From positions 1-24,275 of IMG/VR virus record IMGVR_UViG_3300009183_000354: a stretch of DNA of 24,275 nt. One strand, 5' to 3'. This document shows, piece after piece, positions 2,690-18,956 of the stretch (position 1 is the stretch's first letter; each line of letters starts with the position of its first letter). Both the position numbers and the translations under genes were made by a program. The notes beneath the pieces were generated by a model. It worked only from the letters and a program-made list of their open reading frames with translations, was not told the origin of the DNA and searched no databases. Origin of the DNA: a virus.

Positions 2690-4909
2690 ATGGCTATTAT
2701 TAACGCACAAATTCAATCAGCGGCAGAATTAACATTAACTGTTGATCGTGGGATTATTGGAAGTTCAGGCACATCAGGTTATTCAGGTTATTCAGGTTAT
2801 AGTGGTGTAGGTGTTAGCGGATACAGTGGCTATAGCGGATATAGCGGCATTGATGGCACAGCACAAAGCGGTGTATCAGGATACAGCGGAAGAAGTGGAT
2901 ACAGTGGCTACAGCGGATACAGCGGCACAAACGGAAGTGCTGGCGCATCAGGAACAAGCGGATATTCAGGTTATTCAGGCAGTGGCATATCAGGATACAG
3001 CGGTGCAACAGGTCCACAAGGAATCAGTGGGTTTAGCGGCGCACAGGGCGCAAGCGGATTTTCAGGCGCAGTAGGCGCTAGCGGATTTTCAGGAATTAGT
3101 GGATTCAGCGGCACAAGCGGATATTCAGGATCAGGCATAAGCGGTTGGTCAGGTTATTCAGGCATAAACGGATTGAGCGGATACAGCGGACAAAACGGAT
3201 CGCAAGGCATCAGCGGATTTTCAGGTTACAGTGGAGCTGTTGGAACACAAGGCACTAGCGGATTCAGTGGATATAGTGGTGCAGGCGGTTCTGTTGGCGC
3301 GTCAGGAACATCAGGATACAGTGGTTTCAGCGGATATTCAGGTAGCGGATTTAGCGGTTACAGCGGATACAGCGGTGTAAATGGTTTAAGCGGATATTCA
3401 GGTCAAAATGGCTCACAAGGTATTTCAGGATTTAGCGGATACAGTGGAGCTGTTGGTGCATCAGGTCTATCAGGATACAGCGGAACAGTTGGTGCTAGTG
3501 GGTTTAGCGGATACAGTGGCTCAGGAATAAGCGGATACTCAGGTTACTCAGGCTTTAGTGGCGCACAAGGTCAGTCATCAAGTTATTTTGAATACCATGC
3601 TCACACAGGAACAACTTCAGGCTATCCAGGCGATGGCGCGGTTGGTTGGAACAACGCAACTCAAGCAAGCTCAACTATAGTTAATGTTTCACACTTAACT
3701 GAAACTAATGTTGATATAGATATTTATTTATCTTTATTAACTAATTCAGAACAATTTGTGGTTCAAGATGCAAACGCAAGTATTAATTCTCAAACTTGGC
3801 AAATTAATGGCACACCAATTAATTACAATGCTGGCACTGCAACTTCTTATTGGGCTTATCCTGTTACTTTAGTATCAAGTAGCGGAACAGGCACTACAAA
3901 CTTTGCAAACAATCATAATTTAATTTTAGCGCTTGTTAATGGTGTATCAGGCGTATCAGGTTTTAGTGGATATAGTGGTTTTAGCGGATTCAGCGGAATG
4001 AGCGGTGCAAGCACAAGTGGATACAGCGGTTACAGCGGTGCGGTTGGGGCTAGTGGCACAAGCGGATACAGTGGATATTCAGGAAGTGGTGTGTCAGGCT
4101 GGTCAGGTTTTAGCGGCATAAATGGTGCAAGCGGAATATCAGGCTTTAGTGGCGCACAGGGAATCAGTGGATATTCAGGATACAGTGGTGCAGTTGGTAT
4201 CAGCGGTTTTTCAGGCATCAGCGGATATAGCGGAATTGACGGAACAAATGGGGCATCAGGTATCTCAGGCTATTCAGGTTTCTCAGGCTCAGGCATTAGT
4301 GGCTACTCAGGATATTCAGGTAGCGGTATTAGTGGCTACTCAGGAATAAACGGATTCTCAGGAATCAGTGGATTCAGTGGAGCAAATGGAGCTTCAGGAT
4401 TCAGCGGATATTCAGGTGAAGTAGGCGCAAGTGGTTTTTCAGGAATCAGTGGCTACAGTGGATTTAGTGGATACAGTGGAAGCGGTATATCAGGTTATTC
4501 AGGTTCAGGTATATCAGGTTATTCAGGATATAGTGGAATAGGCACTAGCGGATTCAGTGGATTTAGTGGCGCGGTTGGTGCAAGCGGATTTAGTGGGTTC
4601 AGCGGAATCAGTGGATACTCAGGCTTTAGTGGATCAGGTATAAGCGGATTTTCAGGCGCAAGCGGCATATCAGGCTACAGTGGCGCTGCACCAAGCATTG
4701 TAACTAAAATGATTTATGATGTTTATACTGCTACGGCTGCTCAAACATCATTTACAACAACTAATACTTATACTGCAAATAAAATTCAAGTATCAGTTAA
4801 TGGTATAGAATTAGTTAATGGAACTGATTGCACAGTTAGCGGTGGCACTACATTTACAACAACTGCATTAACATTAAACGACAGGGTATCAGCAATATAT
4901 CCAATATAA
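2690..4909 (+). CDS. Collagen-like G-X-S triplet repeat fibre protein
   Basis: A 739-residue protein. Residues 1-23 are a short cap. Residues about 24-293 and 418-666 are almost pure Gly-X-Ser triplets with X mainly Tyr, Phe, Ile, Ala or Val. They are split by a non-repeat domain (about 294-417, containing YFEYHAHTGTTSGYPGDG and FANNHNLILALVNG) of a kind seen between collagen-like blocks in phage fibres. The last 73 residues form a small beta-rich module with VSVNGIELVNGTDC. Proline is almost absent (one GPQG), unlike classical collagen, so an aromatic-stabilised trimer is inferred. Serine alternates between TCA and AGC/AGT codons. Likely a long flexible tail or capsid fibre. Confidence 0.85.
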   Translation: MAIINAQIQSAAELTLTVDRGIIGSSGTSGYSGYSGYSGVGVSGYSGYSGYSGIDGTAQSGVSGYSGRSGYSGYSGYSGTNGSAGASGTSGYSGYSGSGISGYSGATGPQGISGFSGAQGASGFSGAVGASGFSGISGFSGTSGYSGSGISGWSGYSGINGLSGYSGQNGSQGISGFSGYSGAVGTQGTSGFSGYSGAGGSVGASGTSGYSGFSGYSGSGFSGYSGYSGVNGLSGYSGQNGSQGISGFSGYSGAVGASGLSGYSGTVGASGFSGYSGSGISGYSGYSGFSGAQGQSSSYFEYHAHTGTTSGYPGDGAVGWNNATQASSTIVNVSHLTETNVDIDIYLSLLTNSEQFVVQDANASINSQTWQINGTPINYNAGTATSYWAYPVTLVSSSGTGTTNFANNHNLILALVNGVSGVSGFSGYSGFSGFSGMSGASTSGYSGYSGAVGASGTSGYSGYSGSGVSGWSGFSGINGASGISGFSGAQGISGYSGYSGAVGISGFSGISGYSGIDGTNGASGISGYSGFSGSGISGYSGYSGSGISGYSGINGFSGISGFSGANGASGFSGYSGEVGASGFSGISGYSGFSGYSGSGISGYSGSGISGYSGYSGIGTSGFSGFSGAVGASGFSGFSGISGYSGFSGSGISGFSGASGISGYSGAAPSIVTKMIYDVYTATAAQTSFTTTNTYTANKIQVSVNGIELVNGTDCTVSGGTTFTTTALTLNDRVSAIYPI
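2759..3570 (+). repeat. Collagen-like repeat block 1 (coding)
   Basis: About 90 nine-base units encoding Gly-X-Ser, within the fibre gene. At DNA level the units mix GGTTATTCA, GGATACAGC, GGATTTAGT and similar synonymous versions, so long exact repeats are rare although the peptide is monotonous. Confidence 0.85.
3941..4688 (+). repeat. Collagen-like repeat block 2 (coding)
   Basis: Second run of Gly-X-Ser coding units in the same gene, after the central non-repeat domain. It uses the same mixture of TCA and AGC/AGT serine codons and has short interruptions such as GAVGAS and GINGAS. Confidence 0.85.
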
Positions 4910-7130: not shown

Positions 7131-7295
7131 ATGAAAATGAATATGGAAGATCATACGAAACATGTATTAGATACAGTTTCAGGTGTTACGGCTCTTGGCG
7201 CATTGATGAAATTTTTACCAGCTATTGCGGCAGTTTTATCAATAATTTGGTATTGTATTAGAATTTATGAATGGCTTCGTTCTAAATTAAAATAA
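7131..7295 (+). CDS. Small single-pass membrane protein, putative holin
   Basis: A 54-codon gene. After a polar N terminus (MKMNMEDHTKHVLDTVSG) comes one long hydrophobic stretch, about residues 20-45 (LPAIAAVLSIIWYCIRIYEW), and a basic tail RSKLK. This layout, and the TKHVLDTVSGVTALG pattern, recall small holins next to structural genes in podovirus- and siphovirus-like phages. GGAAAG lies 2 bases before the first ATG but 8 before the third codon (7137), so translation may start at Met3. A second holin candidate is at 19697. Confidence 0.6.
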   Translation: MKMNMEDHTKHVLDTVSGVTALGALMKFLPAIAAVLSIIWYCIRIYEWLRSKLK

Positions 7296-7343
7296 TGATT
7301 TTCTTGATGGTTTTATTTAGCAAAAAGTAGGAAACTGTTTCTT

Positions 7344-7366
7344 AAAATATACATTTTGTATATTTT
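7344..7366. promoter_or_regulatory. Perfect 10-bp palindrome upstream of pqqA
   Basis: AAAATATACA (7344-7353), three bases TTT, then TGTATATTTT (7357-7366). It ends 19 bases before the pqqA start and just before its AGGAG ribosome site. It could be an operator, or an RNA hairpin controlling translation. TATATT at 7359-7364 could serve as a -10 element, but no good -35 is visible at 16-18 bp. Confidence 0.5.
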
Positions 7367-7385
7367 GTAAATTAGGAGAAACACT

Positions 7386-7457
7386 ATGTGGACTAAACCA
7401 TCAGCAACAGAAATGCGTTTTGGCTTTGAAGTAACTATGTATGTAATGAACAAGTAA
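7386..7457 (+). CDS. pqqA: PqqA, pyrroloquinoline quinone precursor peptide
   Basis: A 23-residue peptide whose length and sequence match bacterial PqqA: it begins MWTKPSATEMRFGFE and ends VTMYVMNK. Glu15 and Tyr19 sit in the E-x-x-x-Y arrangement of PqqA, the two residues that the radical SAM enzyme PqqE cross-links to make PQQ (established for the family). A strong ribosome site, AGGAG, is 7 bases upstream. No pqqB, C, D or E is in the window, so the phage would supply only the ribosomal precursor and rely on the host enzymes. The gene stands alone between a holin-like gene and a terminator, like a moron. Confidence 0.92.
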   Translation: MWTKPSATEMRFGFEVTMYVMNK

Positions 7458-7461
7458 TAAA

Positions 7462-7484
7462 AAAGGGGCATTTTAAGCCCCTTT
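7462..7484 (-). terminator. Hairpin terminator between convergent units
   Basis: AAAGGGGC (7462-7469), seven-base loop, GCCCCTTT (7477-7484): a perfect 8-bp stem. Read on the - strand it is followed by T6-ATTAC, giving a classic intrinsic terminator for the leftward early unit. On the + strand the T-run is short (TTTCC), so it would also stop pqqA transcription, but less strongly. Confidence 0.8.
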
Positions 7485-7527
7485 CCTATATGTGAATACC
7501 GATTTTCTGAGGAACGCTATTCACCAC

Positions 7528-7547
7528 TTTGAGCCAAATGGCTCAAA
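7528..7547. other. 9-bp palindromic hairpin at the end of the leftward unit
   Basis: TTTGAGCCA (7528-7536), two bases, TGGCTCAAA (7539-7547). It starts 1 base beyond the stop codon of the leftward gene and lacks a T-run. A third pair, GTGAATA (7492-7498) with TATTCAC (7518-7524), lies between it and the terminator. The interval 7458-7548 therefore holds three stem candidates and no gene; a structured 3' end is likely. Confidence 0.55.
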
Positions 7548-7548
7548 T

Positions 7549-7746
7549 TCACTTAATATAATGATCGCCTGTATTTCCGTTCAATCCAACAATATCTATT
7601 TTATCTTCGTCCCAGGTAGTTGTTTCATCTGAATCGTAATAGATTTCTTTTTTCTTTTTACCAAAAATCTTTTCAAAATTATCATCAAACTTTTCTTTAT
7701 CTGTTTTTCTTGCTACTGAACCTTTACCCGCCTCGCTATATTTCAT
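7549..7746 (-). CDS. Small basic phage protein (GKGS...NFEKIFGKKKK type)
   Basis: A 65-residue protein starting MKYSEAGKGSVARKTDKEKF. The internal ATG at 7746 is chosen over an upstream start because AGGGG lies 8 bases before it and the start overlaps the metallophosphoesterase stop by 11 bases. Short phage proteins with GKGS-x(n)-R-x-T-x(4)-F/Y-x(3)-F/Y-x-x-I-F are widespread and uncharacterised. The C-terminal half is acidic (YDSDETTTWDEDK). Last gene of the leftward unit. Confidence 0.65.
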   Translation of the reverse strand: MKYSEAGKGSVARKTDKEKFDDNFEKIFGKKKKEIYYDSDETTTWDEDKIDIVGLNGNTGDHYIK

Positions 7747-8707
7747 AAGCTTTACCCCTAAATGCAACAAGACCATCACCAATAACTTCCACTAATTCCG
7801 GTGGTAGAAGTTTACCCTTCCAAAAAGTAAGAACAGCAAAACCACTTCGCCAATTTTTTGGATTATCTTCAGTATAATGAACAAACTGTTCGCCGTCAAT
7901 TTCAGCAAGAGTTCCAGTGTCGACACCATAACGAGTGCCTGTATAGTCTGTGTAAGCAGCGACTTTAAGAGAGTGCAAATGTCCTGTAACCATACTTGTG
8001 CCAGCGCCCATAGTATTGTTATGGGTAGCATGAACGCCACCTTTCCATCTGTGTTTAATACATACATCGTTTACCCATGTTGCCCAGCAAGGTTTCCAAG
8101 CAGGGAAATGGTCTTTTAAATGAAAACCATGTATCTTTTCATACTGCGGGGCTACCGCCGCTAACAGAGTTTCAAAACGGCTATCATGATTACCTAAAGT
8201 CCAAGTCAATATAGGGCTAGGTTTAATCTTTTTGCAAGCATCTTCAATGCCGCCTAGCATTGTTTTGCAGGCTTCTAATTCTTGATAAACATCAGGTCTA
8301 TTTTCAAGGAAACCAATACGACCATGACGAGATATATTAGCGCCATCAAAAGCATCACCATTACATACTACAAGTTTTGGCTTTAATTCTTCAATAGATT
8401 TAATTAAAGCTCTGTAAGCTGTTGAAGGGTTGTCGTTCCAAAAGTGTGCATCAGAAAATACTAAAACTACACCATTTTCAACAGGAACATTAATTCTAGC
8501 CGAATGTCTTTCTATCATTGGGGTTTCGCTATTAGTAACTAAATCAAGTCCGTAACGAGCCTCTAAACTGCGTCTGCGTCTGTAAACAGCAGTAAGATCA
8601 CAGCCGATAGCTAACGCCATTTTTTTAGGTGACTTTAATTCTTTCCAAAGTTTTAAAAATTCTTCATCTGTAGTTATTTGATTCGCTGGTGCATAAGCTC
8701 TTGGCAT
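7736..8707 (-). CDS. Calcineurin-like metallophosphoesterase with N-terminal HTH-like segment
   Basis: A 323-residue protein. The metallophosphoesterase signature is present in order: FSDAHFW (about 84-90), NGDAFD (116-121), GNHD (172-175), and TGHLH (about 241-245), giving the metal ligands of this superfamily. Residues about 14-50 look like a DNA-binding helix-turn-helix (SPKKMALAIGCDLTAVYRRR). Related phage proteins occur in recombination or replication clusters and may be nucleases (Mre11/SbcD superfamily) or phosphatases. A terminator lies just before its ribosome site (AAGGAA), so its expression may be lower than that of the genes upstream. Confidence 0.8.
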   Translation of the reverse strand: MPRAYAPANQITTDEEFLKLWKELKSPKKMALAIGCDLTAVYRRRRSLEARYGLDLVTNSETPMIERHSARINVPVENGVVLVFSDAHFWNDNPSTAYRALIKSIEELKPKLVVCNGDAFDGANISRHGRIGFLENRPDVYQELEACKTMLGGIEDACKKIKPSPILTWTLGNHDSRFETLLAAVAPQYEKIHGFHLKDHFPAWKPCWATWVNDVCIKHRWKGGVHATHNNTMGAGTSMVTGHLHSLKVAAYTDYTGTRYGVDTGTLAEIDGEQFVHYTEDNPKNWRSGFAVLTFWKGKLLPPELVEVIGDGLVAFRGKAYEI

Positions 8708-8747: not shown

Positions 8748-9005
8748 TTAAAATGGAACATCAGATTCCATGTCGTCAAAGTTTGCTGGTGCAGCCTCGT
8801 TATTTCTAGCCGTAGATTCTCTTGGCTTTGGCTCTCTAGTGTTTAACCAGCCGTCAAAATTAACAGGTAGCGTTTCTAATTTTATAGATAAGCCACCATA
8901 TTTATTTTCCATAACTACACCGCAATAAATATTCTTGCGTCTTTCTTTGCCGTCTGTGCCGACATATTTTTCACCGCCTGCAATTACATCATATTTAACT
9001 GCCAT
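8748..9005 (-). CDS. SSB-like single-stranded DNA-binding protein
   Basis: An 85-residue protein starting MAVKYDVIAGGEKYV. The internal ATG is chosen because AAAGGAAAAGAAA precedes it. The beta-rich body (IYCGVVMENKYGGLSIKLE) could be an OB-like fold. The C terminus, DDMESDVPF, is the acidic D-x-P-F tail by which single-strand DNA-binding proteins recruit partners (family knowledge). It overlaps the YqaJ exonuclease gene by 11 bases, and ERF is three genes upstream, so it probably serves the recombination set. Confidence 0.7.
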   Translation of the reverse strand: MAVKYDVIAGGEKYVGTDGKERRKNIYCGVVMENKYGGLSIKLETLPVNFDGWLNTREPKPRESTARNNEAAPANFDDMESDVPF

Positions 9006-9630
9006 TTTCTTTTCCTTTAAGTTGTTGAACAATTATATCTATTTCGTCATTAAATGCCATGACTTCCGTTTCTGCTTGCTTTATAAATTCCTCGTCCCTA
9101 AAAACCCTAGTAATAAAAAGCTGTAATGCATCGCTAATATCAGGATCAAAAGAAACTAAGTCGCACCATTTTCTATCAACACCACAGCAAGCCATTTGCC
9201 ATTGAACTTGAGCATAATAACGACTTATTAAATCTTTGCCATCATTAATAAAATGCTCTAAATGGTTTTCAGGGTTGGGGCATTTAATTTCTATAAGCCC
9301 GTCGCTACCAATTAACCCGTCAGGTGAACAACCTGCCATAGAAATGACAGGGTGATTAACAAAAGGAAGCTGATCTACGAACAAACCCATGCGAATCTCG
9401 TAAGAAGCCCTTGCGAGAGGCTCTAACGCGTTTCCTCTTTCCATTGCGGCATTGGTATAACCCTCAATGCGTTTGCCCGTTAAACGCTCTCGTATGAGTT
9501 CGTTTTTTAATTTTTTACGACCAGCGCTCTCACCTGTCTTAACTTTTGACATTAGATCAGAAATTCTGCTCGCCGTAATTTTACCGAGGCGCATTTCAAA
9601 CCATTCGTTACTTCCTTGTTGTATGTCCAT
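8995..9630 (-). CDS. YqaJ/lambda-Exo family recombinase exonuclease
   Basis: A 211-residue protein with the YqaJ pattern: QQGSNEWFEMRLGKITAS at residues 4-21, MERGNALEPLAR at 63-74, and catalytic GCSPDGLIG...LIEIKCP with Asp104, Glu114 and Lys116, then YYAQVQWQMACCG near 142-154. Enzymes of this family digest one strand of duplex DNA to produce the tail used by an annealing protein; ERF is encoded just upstream in the same unit. Length is normal for the family and no key residue is missing. Confidence 0.88.
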   Translation of the reverse strand: MDIQQGSNEWFEMRLGKITASRISDLMSKVKTGESAGRKKLKNELIRERLTGKRIEGYTNAAMERGNALEPLARASYEIRMGLFVDQLPFVNHPVISMAGCSPDGLIGSDGLIEIKCPNPENHLEHFINDGKDLISRYYAQVQWQMACCGVDRKWCDLVSFDPDISDALQLFITRVFRDEEFIKQAETEVMAFNDEIDIIVQQLKGKENGS

Positions 9631-16828: not shown

Positions 16829-17434
16829 ATGAAGATAGAATATAAAAAGATAATAGATTTAATTCCGTATGAAAAAAACAGTCGCATTCATACAGATGCT
16901 CAATTAGATCAAATAGCCGCCTCTATCAAAGAATTTGGTTTTAGAAACCCTGTTATCGTTGATGGCGATAATATTCTTGCAGGTCATGGCAGAGTTGAGG
17001 CAGCAAAAAAACTAAACATTAAAGAAGTGCCAACGATTAGCGCTTCAGATTTAAGCGATGACCAAAAGAAAGCATTCATTATTGCAGACAATAAGATTGC
17101 TCTTAATGGTGAGTGGGACGAATCACTACTTATTCAAGAGATAGAAGATTTAAAGTTAGCTGATTTTGATATTAGCGTTTTAGCTTTTGATCCTTCTGAG
17201 CTTCAAGTTAAAGATATTGATTATTCTATTTTAGATCAGCACGACCTTGGCTCTCAGTTAGATGATTTAGCAAAAGGCGTAAGAAAAGCAATTCAAATTG
17301 AATTTGAGCCTGAACATTACGAGCGTGCGCAGTTAGCTGTTAAATTTTGGCGAGATCAAGATGCTTATGTTGGTTATATGATGCTGGAATATTTTGAAAG
17401 AGAAATGAAAGCGGTTAAAGATCAAGGCTTATGA
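16829..17434 (+). CDS. ParB/Srx-fold nuclease-domain protein
   Basis: A 201-residue protein. Residues 1-100 match the ParB N-terminal domain of phages: LIPYEKNSRIHTDAQLDQIA, FGFRNPVIVDGDNILAGHGR, VEAAKKL, IADNKIALNGEWDE. In many phages this domain is fused to an N4/N6 DNA methyltransferase; here only about 100 further residues follow and they show no methyltransferase motif. It is ATGA-coupled to the TET-associated glycosyltransferase, so it probably belongs to the same DNA-modification module. Confidence 0.8.
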   Translation: MKIEYKKIIDLIPYEKNSRIHTDAQLDQIAASIKEFGFRNPVIVDGDNILAGHGRVEAAKKLNIKEVPTISASDLSDDQKKAFIIADNKIALNGEWDESLLIQEIEDLKLADFDISVLAFDPSELQVKDIDYSILDQHDLGSQLDDLAKGVRKAIQIEFEPEHYERAQLAVKFWRDQDAYVGYMMLEYFEREMKAVKDQGL

Positions 17435-18162
17435 TTTGTTATATACCTACAAAATCAAGACAAAATACTAAAACATATAAATTATTCGAAGAAGCAGGGA
17501 TAGAGTTTATACACTTTATCGAGCCTCAAGAGTTTGATGTTTATGATGTTCCTAACAAAGTAAACATTGAGCAGAACGACAAAGGAATCGTATATGTTCG
17601 AAATTTTATGCTGGACTACGCAAGACAACACAATCATGATTGGATTATCATTTGTGATGATGATGTCACAGGATTCGGAATCTTCAATGGCAAAACTGTC
17701 AATCTTGGTGCAAAAATTTGGTTCGAGATTTTTGAAAAAGCTTCAAAACTTCCATTTGAATTAGTCGGTATCAATTACACGCAACACGCATGGCATGAAA
17801 AAACTTCCTACTCTATAAATAGAAAATACGCTGAAGTATGCGTTCTCATTAATACTAAAACTATTACTTGGAAATATAGAGAGCAATTTAAGTTTAAAGA
17901 GGATAGAGATTTTGCCTTACAAACTATTAAGCGAGGTAGTGGCATATTAAGATTTAATCATTACTGGTTTGCCTGCCCAAATGTTGGAACTAACCCTGGC
18001 GGACTGCATGAAGATTACAAATCTAAACGAGATGAAGAAGCCGCTATAAAAATGGTTAAAGAATGGCACCCATTCCTCACACTTCAAAACAAAAATGGTC
18101 GTATAGATATTAAGTCTGATATAAAAGGATTCGCAGCTCATTATAAAAAGGTTATCAAATGA
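17431..18162 (+). CDS. TET-associated glycosyltransferase (TAGT-like)
   Basis: A 243-residue protein. CYIPTKSRQNTKTYKLFEEA at the N terminus, VEP-like FIEPQEF, GIVYVRNFMLDYARQHNHDW (about 52-71) and ICDDDVTGF with Asp76-78 are the pattern of glycosyltransferases that accompany TET/JBP dioxygenases in phages and add sugars to hydroxymethyl bases. Both flanking genes overlap by ATGA, and the downstream one is the dioxygenase, which strengthens the assignment. Substrate base and sugar cannot be read from sequence. Confidence 0.75.
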   Translation: MICYIPTKSRQNTKTYKLFEEAGIEFIHFIEPQEFDVYDVPNKVNIEQNDKGIVYVRNFMLDYARQHNHDWIIICDDDVTGFGIFNGKTVNLGAKIWFEIFEKASKLPFELVGINYTQHAWHEKTSYSINRKYAEVCVLINTKTITWKYREQFKFKEDRDFALQTIKRGSGILRFNHYWFACPNVGTNPGGLHEDYKSKRDEEAAIKMVKEWHPFLTLQNKNGRIDIKSDIKGFAAHYKKVIK

Positions 18163-18956
18163 AGCGTGTCGATTTAGATTTACAGGAACATAATATAAAG
18201 ATTGGCGATACATGCGGCGATTTAAAACCAAATGTTACTGAGGATAGCATTTTCTACGCTGATGGTGAGCCGATTGGATTTTACCTAAAGGAAGTGCCTA
18301 CAAAATTAAAACAATTCGCTGAAATCGCTAATGCAGAGCTTTTATCTGATAGAGTTCCTAAAGAGATAATGAGCCGTGGTCCTAACAGTGAGTTCTATAA
18401 AAAATTGCTTGAAGAAAAAGGCATGAAACATGTAGATCAGTTTAGTACTATTTTAGGAAGCTGCGCACCAAGACCACATATGCGTATGCCATATCCTAGA
18501 ATTTCAAGAGTTCATGAAGTAGAATCTGCTCAAACATTTATTAAAGCTATGTTGCTTGCTTGTCATGAAGCTGAGGAACTTATTAAGGAGTTAGTGCCAA
18601 ATGTATATGAAAAACAGCTTAAAGCAATCGAAGAAAATGTCCCCCCTCGTTTCAGATTTGGTAGATTGTTTACTTCTAGCATCTCTAATTTCAACATCGC
18701 TGCTAATTATCATATTGATGGTGCGAACCTTAAAGATTGCGTTAATGTAATTATTGCAAAAAGAAGTAATGCTAAAGGTGGTAACACTACTGTGCCTGAT
18801 TATGGCGCAACTGTTGATAGCTCGGATAATTCTATGTTAGTTTATCCTGCTTGGCGAAATGTTCACGGAGTGACGCCGATTATACCACTTAAAGAAGGCG
18901 GTTATAGGAACACTTTAGTATTTTATCCATTAAAAGCGTTTAAAAATTACTGGTAA
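18159..18956 (+). CDS. TET/JBP family Fe(II)/2-oxoglutarate DNA dioxygenase
   Basis: A 265-residue protein with the double-stranded beta-helix ligands: His185-x-Asp187 in NFNIAANYHIDGANLKDCVN, His236 in AWRNVHGVTP, and Arg250 in GYRNTLVFYPL, which would bind 2-oxoglutarate. RFRFGRLFTSSISNFN precedes the first motif. This ordering is that of phage TET/JBP enzymes, which oxidise 5-methylcytosine or thymine in DNA (family knowledge). It shares ATGA with the glycosyltransferase, whose sugar would be placed on the new hydroxyl. A prolyl-hydroxylase-like role is the main alternative. Confidence 0.75.
   Translation: MKRVDLDLQEHNIKIGDTCGDLKPNVTEDSIFYADGEPIGFYLKEVPTKLKQFAEIANAELLSDRVPKEIMSRGPNSEFYKKLLEEKGMKHVDQFSTILGSCAPRPHMRMPYPRISRVHEVESAQTFIKAMLLACHEAEELIKELVPNVYEKQLKAIEENVPPRFRFGRLFTSSISNFNIAANYHIDGANLKDCVNVIIAKRSNAKGGNTTVPDYGATVDSSDNSMLVYPAWRNVHGVTPIIPLKEGGYRNTLVFYPLKAFKNYW

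Follow-up and report, generated by a model that had tools for sequence, protein, structure and literature searches.

The gene pqqA, which encodes the 23-amino-acid precursor peptide of PQQ, lies at the junction of two convergent gene units in the window, by which we mean the whole 24,275-nt stretch of DNA analysed. To its left a rightward unit contains tail fibre, methyltransferase and glycosyltransferase genes and small ORFs, and to its right a leftward unit contains a small ORF and genes for a metallophosphoesterase, an SSB-like protein, a YqaJ/RecE exonuclease and Erf (Table 1). The window is genuine viral sequence, a phage fragment that encodes terminase, portal, tail fibre and Erf/exonuclease. 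The phage P19250A matched 28 of its 43 ORFs, the portal being 90% identical, and of 50,697 phage records P19250A was the only one to match the window at the DNA level and the only one with a terminase more than 60% identical to that of the window (80%). As the host strain of P19250A belongs to the freshwater LD28 clade of Methylophilaceae, this nearest named relative makes it likely that the window phage has a freshwater Methylophilaceae host (LD28/Methylopumilus-like), in agreement with the host guessed in an earlier sequence-only reading of this DNA. In P19250A, pqqA and the convergent small ORF form a block whose orientation is opposite to that in the window; the breakpoints fall near window positions 7293-7299 and 7743, and the inverted block is of ~450 bp (window 7293-7743 vs P19250A 27748-28243).

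Table 1. Features around pqqA in the window (strand given where one is assigned).
Feature	Position	Strand	Remarks
54-aa small ORF with hydrophobic stretch, closes the rightward unit ahead of pqqA	7131..7295	+	no PHROG match
Perfect palindrome, 10-bp arms and 3-nt loop, AAAATATACA-TTT-TGTATATTTT	7344..7366	+	pqqA leader
Ribosome-binding site AGGAG	7374..7378	+	7 nt before ATG; read from sequence
pqqA, 23-aa PQQ precursor peptide MWTKPSATEMRFGFEVTMYVMNK	7386..7457, stop included	+	PF08042 and TIGR02107 above curated cut-offs
GC-rich stem-loop between convergent units	7462..7484		terminator-like on minus strand
Hairpin with core GCGTTCYTCAGAAAATCG	7482..7528	-	antisense to pqqA here; elsewhere usually 17-34 nt after phage pqqA
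8-bp hairpin TTTGAGCC/GGCTCAAA	7528..7547		z -5.9
65-aa small ORF (MKYSEAGKGS...) converging on pqqA	7549..7746	-	inverted together with pqqA in P19250A
Calcineurin-like metallophosphoesterase	7736..8707	-	PF00149, PHROG 221
YqaJ/RecE-like exonuclease, lineage marker	8995..9630	-	PHROG 149; pqqA beside it in 10/10 close relatives

The product of the ORF matched the Pfam PqqA family PF08042 (E=3.2e-11, 43.3 bits, cut-off 21.1) and the NCBIfam PqqA equivalog TIGR02107 (E=2.3e-10, 40 bits, cut-off 20), and these two curated models bear out its earlier assignment to the PqqA type. The FEVTMY segment contains E15 and Y19, the ExxxY pair (Glu, three residues, Tyr) that is cross-linked by PqqE, as had been read from the letters. 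The peptide shares its length, MWxxP start, GFEVTMY motif and E15/Y19 pair with bacterial PqqA, especially that of Methylophilaceae; unlike bacterial PqqA it is encoded by a phage in a genome without pqqB-E, and the usual pqqB-E operon context, which membership of the family does not require, is absent from the locus. A search of solved structures for PqqA relatives gave no match. A chance origin of the profile matches is excluded, because they are full-length and because relatives carry the gene at the same site, and we predict with high confidence that 7386-7457 is a functional phage-borne pqqA.

The leader contains the ribosome-binding site and the palindrome that had been described for it. 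The palindrome is possibly a leader hairpin or an operator; no second exact copy was found in the window and looser copies were at chance level, for which reason an operator shared within the phage was rejected. No clear promoter for pqqA was found in the window. A terminator had also been proposed downstream of pqqA, and the stem-loop at that position is real (z -2.75), but its U-run gives a canonical terminator call only on the minus strand, the plus-strand tail being CCTATAT. A clean plus-strand terminator after pqqA was thus rejected, and the stem-loop may be as useful to the converging leftward operon as to pqqA.

The gene was also said to be carried alone and to be short enough for gene callers to skip, and both claims held. 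No pqqB-E genes were seen in the gene list of the window or near viral pqqA in the ~120 viral stretches from a first-pattern scan. Exactly one PqqA above cut-off was present in each of 48 viral records tested (a 49th record served as a bacterial-looking control), related whole phage genomes included, and PqqE above cut-off was present in none of the 48. Methanol dehydrogenase (TIGR03075) was found in a single one of these records (G061) and was absent from P19250A and the 46 others; the window itself is a fragment of a phage genome. A tblastn search of the 50,697 phage records with two PqqA variants recovered Venkman, P19250A, MEP301, MEP401, MEP402, four Melnitz isolates and ctXG6705. The only matches outside the methylophages were ctXG6705, which is uncultured and of unknown host, and two records filed as Acinetobacter phage. 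All six methylophage species that surfaced among these records carry pqqA; other methylophages named in the taxonomy, such as MEP431-434, lie outside this coverage, and a literature search on MEP431-434 found nothing. The gene is unannotated in every methylophage and ctXG6705 record opened, and in ctXG6705 and Melnitz the sole annotated feature at the pqqA site is an antisense ORF. The matches to Acinetobacter phage MD-2021a were set aside as bacterial sequence, as the contig examined has pqqB-E among ordinary bacterial genes. One record filed in this way, CAKLQF020000010.1, carries a bacterial-type pqqBCDE operon and a polyphosphate kinase gene and is probably a misfiled bacterial sequence.

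Conservation of the cross-linked residues was assessed in viral genes found by scanning IMG/VR with a pattern that covers only the N-terminal half of PqqA, so that Glu15 and Tyr19 fall outside it and circularity is avoided. Both residues were kept in 119/119 genes, as the earlier reading would have them conserved in related phages. The dN/dS value was 0.019 for the C-terminal half (genes found via the N-terminal pattern) and 0.18 for the N-terminal half (genes found via a C-terminal pattern); these values are rough, as synonymous sites are near saturation. The C-terminal half of viral PqqA is, on these comparisons, clearly under strong purifying selection.

Carriers of pqqA are phages of different kinds with differing gene neighbourhoods, namely the T4-like Melnitz, the Zobellviridae MEP401/402 and the small phages P19250A, Venkman and MEP301, and other pqqA contigs have terminases of further PHROG types. 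Among relatives of the window exonuclease of at least 58% identity, pqqA was at the same place in 10/10, and among those below 53% identity in 0/70, some of these sequences being truncated. In the Venkman lineage 31 of the 34 members with enough sequence carried the gene. Universal carriage among terminase relatives of the window was rejected: pqqA was present in 2/48 and absent from 46/48, mostly fragments of unknown host. It follows that pqqA is not linked to the packaging functions, and the adjoining exonuclease is the marker that tracks it. Three contigs (L033, L036 and L124) have pqqA peptides unlike the usual Methylophilaceae type, together with other terminase/portal types, which suggests that phages of other PQQ-using hosts may also carry pqqA. 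Across 133 distinct viral pqqA loci, GGAG or AGGA preceded the start in 95%, an exact TATAAT lay 20-90 nt upstream in 32% (13% of shuffles), a leader stem of at least 6 bp was present in 40% (11% of shuffles) and a terminator occurred within 100 nt in 50% (2% of shuffles). Such free-standing units in phage genomes are termed 'morons', and in many loci phage pqqA often looks like one. The window is a poorer example of this pattern, its plus-strand terminator being weak and its promoter unclear.

A second conserved element accompanies many of these genes. The full hairpin, GGTGAATAGCGTTCYTCAGAAAATCGGTATTCACC, occurs on the minus strand of the window (7482-7528), at 28011-28057 of contig L396 and in L576-L618. 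An exact scan for its core in all viral contigs gave 47 matches, in partly redundant contigs, and pqqA was within ~65 nt in 43. In 40 of these 43 the core lay 17-34 nt past the pqqA stop on the same strand, in more than one gene order; of the remaining core contigs, two have pqqA ~1.9 kb away, and two that are without pqqA are also without the lower stem. None of 82 host loci contained the core, and the window gave no Rfam match above a family cut-off. In the alignment of the hairpin 92.6% of cells are paired, with covariation no higher than in shuffles, and either strand of the region may encode a short product. In the window the hairpin and pqqA lie on opposite strands, which looks as though the gene was exchanged or inverted and the element stayed in position.

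In the presumed hosts pqqA is a familiar gene. It was present in 22/22 Methylophilaceae genomes, at 1-12 copies, and thus has a host homologue in a metabolic pathway, as an auxiliary metabolic gene should; PqqE was present in 21/22, mostly as a single copy. Published counts are similar, with 3-12 pqqA copies vs one pqqBCDE set (PMC4109929), and many of the pqqA copies are orphans located away from pqqE. In the closed chromosome of the OM43-type strain LSUCC0665 (G090) the nearest pqqA is ~110 kb from pqqE. Three host genomes (G090, G097 and G099) have pqqE without an adjoining pqqA, and several OM43-type genomes have a tandem pqqA pair ~200 bp apart. As orphan pqqA is normal in these hosts, the lone phage gene is the phage version of the same arrangement, and phage and host peptides are near-identical. 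The most abundant OM43 transcript is xoxF (PMC5120137). In Acetobacter, plasmid-borne pqqAB raised PQQ by 29% (PMC7936290), an experiment that cannot isolate the effect of PqqA because pqqB was overexpressed along with it. The published growth medium for OM43 includes PQQ (PMC9004378), and an effect of phage PqqA could be masked in it. With several pqqA copies of their own, the hosts may not be limited by PqqA.

One PqqA is destroyed for each PQQ made, while PqqB-E are reused, and each newly made methanol dehydrogenase needs PQQ. Because PqqA is consumed and the enzymes are not, it would be the only gene that the phage needs to bring. From the identity of the peptide, its solitary carriage, the invariant cross-link residues, the purifying selection, the unrelated carriers and the presence in hosts of PqqE and orphan pqqA, our best reading, which we consider likely, is that the phage supplies the sole consumed component of the PQQ pathway, with host PqqB-E doing the rest. 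In an infected methylotroph the phage gene would give rise to the PqqA peptide, host PqqD would present it to host PqqE, and PqqE would join Glu15 to Tyr19; host peptidases, PqqB and PqqC would then complete PQQ for the XoxF/MxaF methanol dehydrogenases. Phage PqqA alone could in this manner sustain the PQQ supply once host expression drops, and we infer that phage pqqA is transcribed, that its peptide is used by the host enzymes and that the phage benefits. With PqqA consumed, xoxF the top transcript and a PQQ needed for each enzyme, PqqA alone would maintain or raise PQQ. Topping up PqqA is probably, from the breadth of carriage, a common way in which methylophages keep their hosts energised.

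A milder form of this best explanation is that the phage merely replaces PqqA lost during takeover, with PQQ held at its normal level and no boost. Cyanophages bring psbA, a fast-turnover photosystem part, and the analogy is of this type: a phage would bring the single fast-consumed part of the host energy machinery, psbA being a photosystem subunit and PqqA a sacrificial precursor peptide. The milder form draws on the same data, and the sequence data cannot tell replacing from boosting; we assign it somewhat less than half of the weight of the best explanation. A different possibility is that phage PqqA is a decoy or regulator, which occupies PqqD/PqqE or a regulator and slows PQQ synthesis or signals infection. 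Excess substrate peptide could titrate PqqD, and multiple host pqqA copies differ in expression (PMC9851590), but phage PqqA keeps its cross-link residues and its C-terminal motif in an exactly host-like form, and loss of E15 or Y19 would be to the advantage of a decoy. As residues and motif are kept, the peptide is expected to function as a substrate, and we consider a decoy improbable.

Less credible still is that a host orphan pqqA was acquired by chance as passenger DNA and kept without selection. The many dispersed host copies would be easily acquired, and phage and host peptides are near-identical. Against it, purifying selection is strong and synonymous change is close to saturation, the gene is retained at the same site across a lineage, and unrelated phages carry it; we regard it as very unlikely.

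More widely, lone pqqA may be a near-universal and repeatedly acquired methylophage gene, strongly selected because nothing else in the PQQ pathway is consumed, and often forming a cassette with the hairpin 17-34 nt later; as this hairpin lacks an Rfam match and was not seen next to host pqqA, it might provide the gene's own 3' RNA control or a recombination site. We put the chances of this wider proposal at about even.

Viral PqqA as such is already known, so that the central idea of the sequence-only reading is not new. Coutinho et al. reported it in 2020, together with methanol dehydrogenase, in one Lake Baikal phage population (PMC7678222), and pqqA is listed among genes of viruses in reservoir sediments (PMC13188868). 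The Baikal Methylophilaceae phage populations VP_266/VP_139 resemble the present case in viral PqqA, methylotroph host and proposed boost to methanol oxidation (PMC7678222); VP_266 differs in being T4-like and in also encoding methanol dehydrogenase, whereas the window has PqqA alone in a small P19250A-like phage. The methylophages P19250A, Venkman, MEP301, MEP401/402 and Melnitz have, like the window, a lone pqqA, and open papers on cultured OM43 phages make no mention of a phage PQQ-precursor gene (PMC8163748, PMC8024684, PMC10580990, PMC9004378). What is new is the solitary, lineage-wide and overlooked pqqA and the conserved hairpin that often follows it; the literature searched gave no account of the lone form of the gene, of its spread or of its having escaped notice in all cultured methylophages checked. 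OM43/LD28-type bacteria oxidise methanol with a PQQ-dependent key enzyme, and the carbon flux involved is sizeable; if most of their viruses bring PqqA then infection directly touches this flux. As six culturable phage species carry pqqA, the idea is testable at once, and phage-host pairs in existence include Venkman/H5P1, MEP401/FZCC0133 and P19250A/IMCC19250. Gene callers and auxiliary metabolic gene pipelines have a blind spot for metabolic genes of ~20 codons, and the findings suggest a rule for phage cargo, in which the consumable part of a pathway is carried and not its enzymes.

Two further regions of the window are of note. At 16829-18956 (+) a ParB-like protein, a TET-associated glycosyltransferase (PF20691) and a Tet/JBP-type 2OG oxygenase (PF12851, slightly below cut-off) are encoded in a row, likely a DNA base hypermodification cluster as judged from these domains; its genes had no match in P19250A. 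The tail fibre of 739 amino acids (2690-4909, +) contains collagen-like GYSGYSG/ISGFSG repeats.
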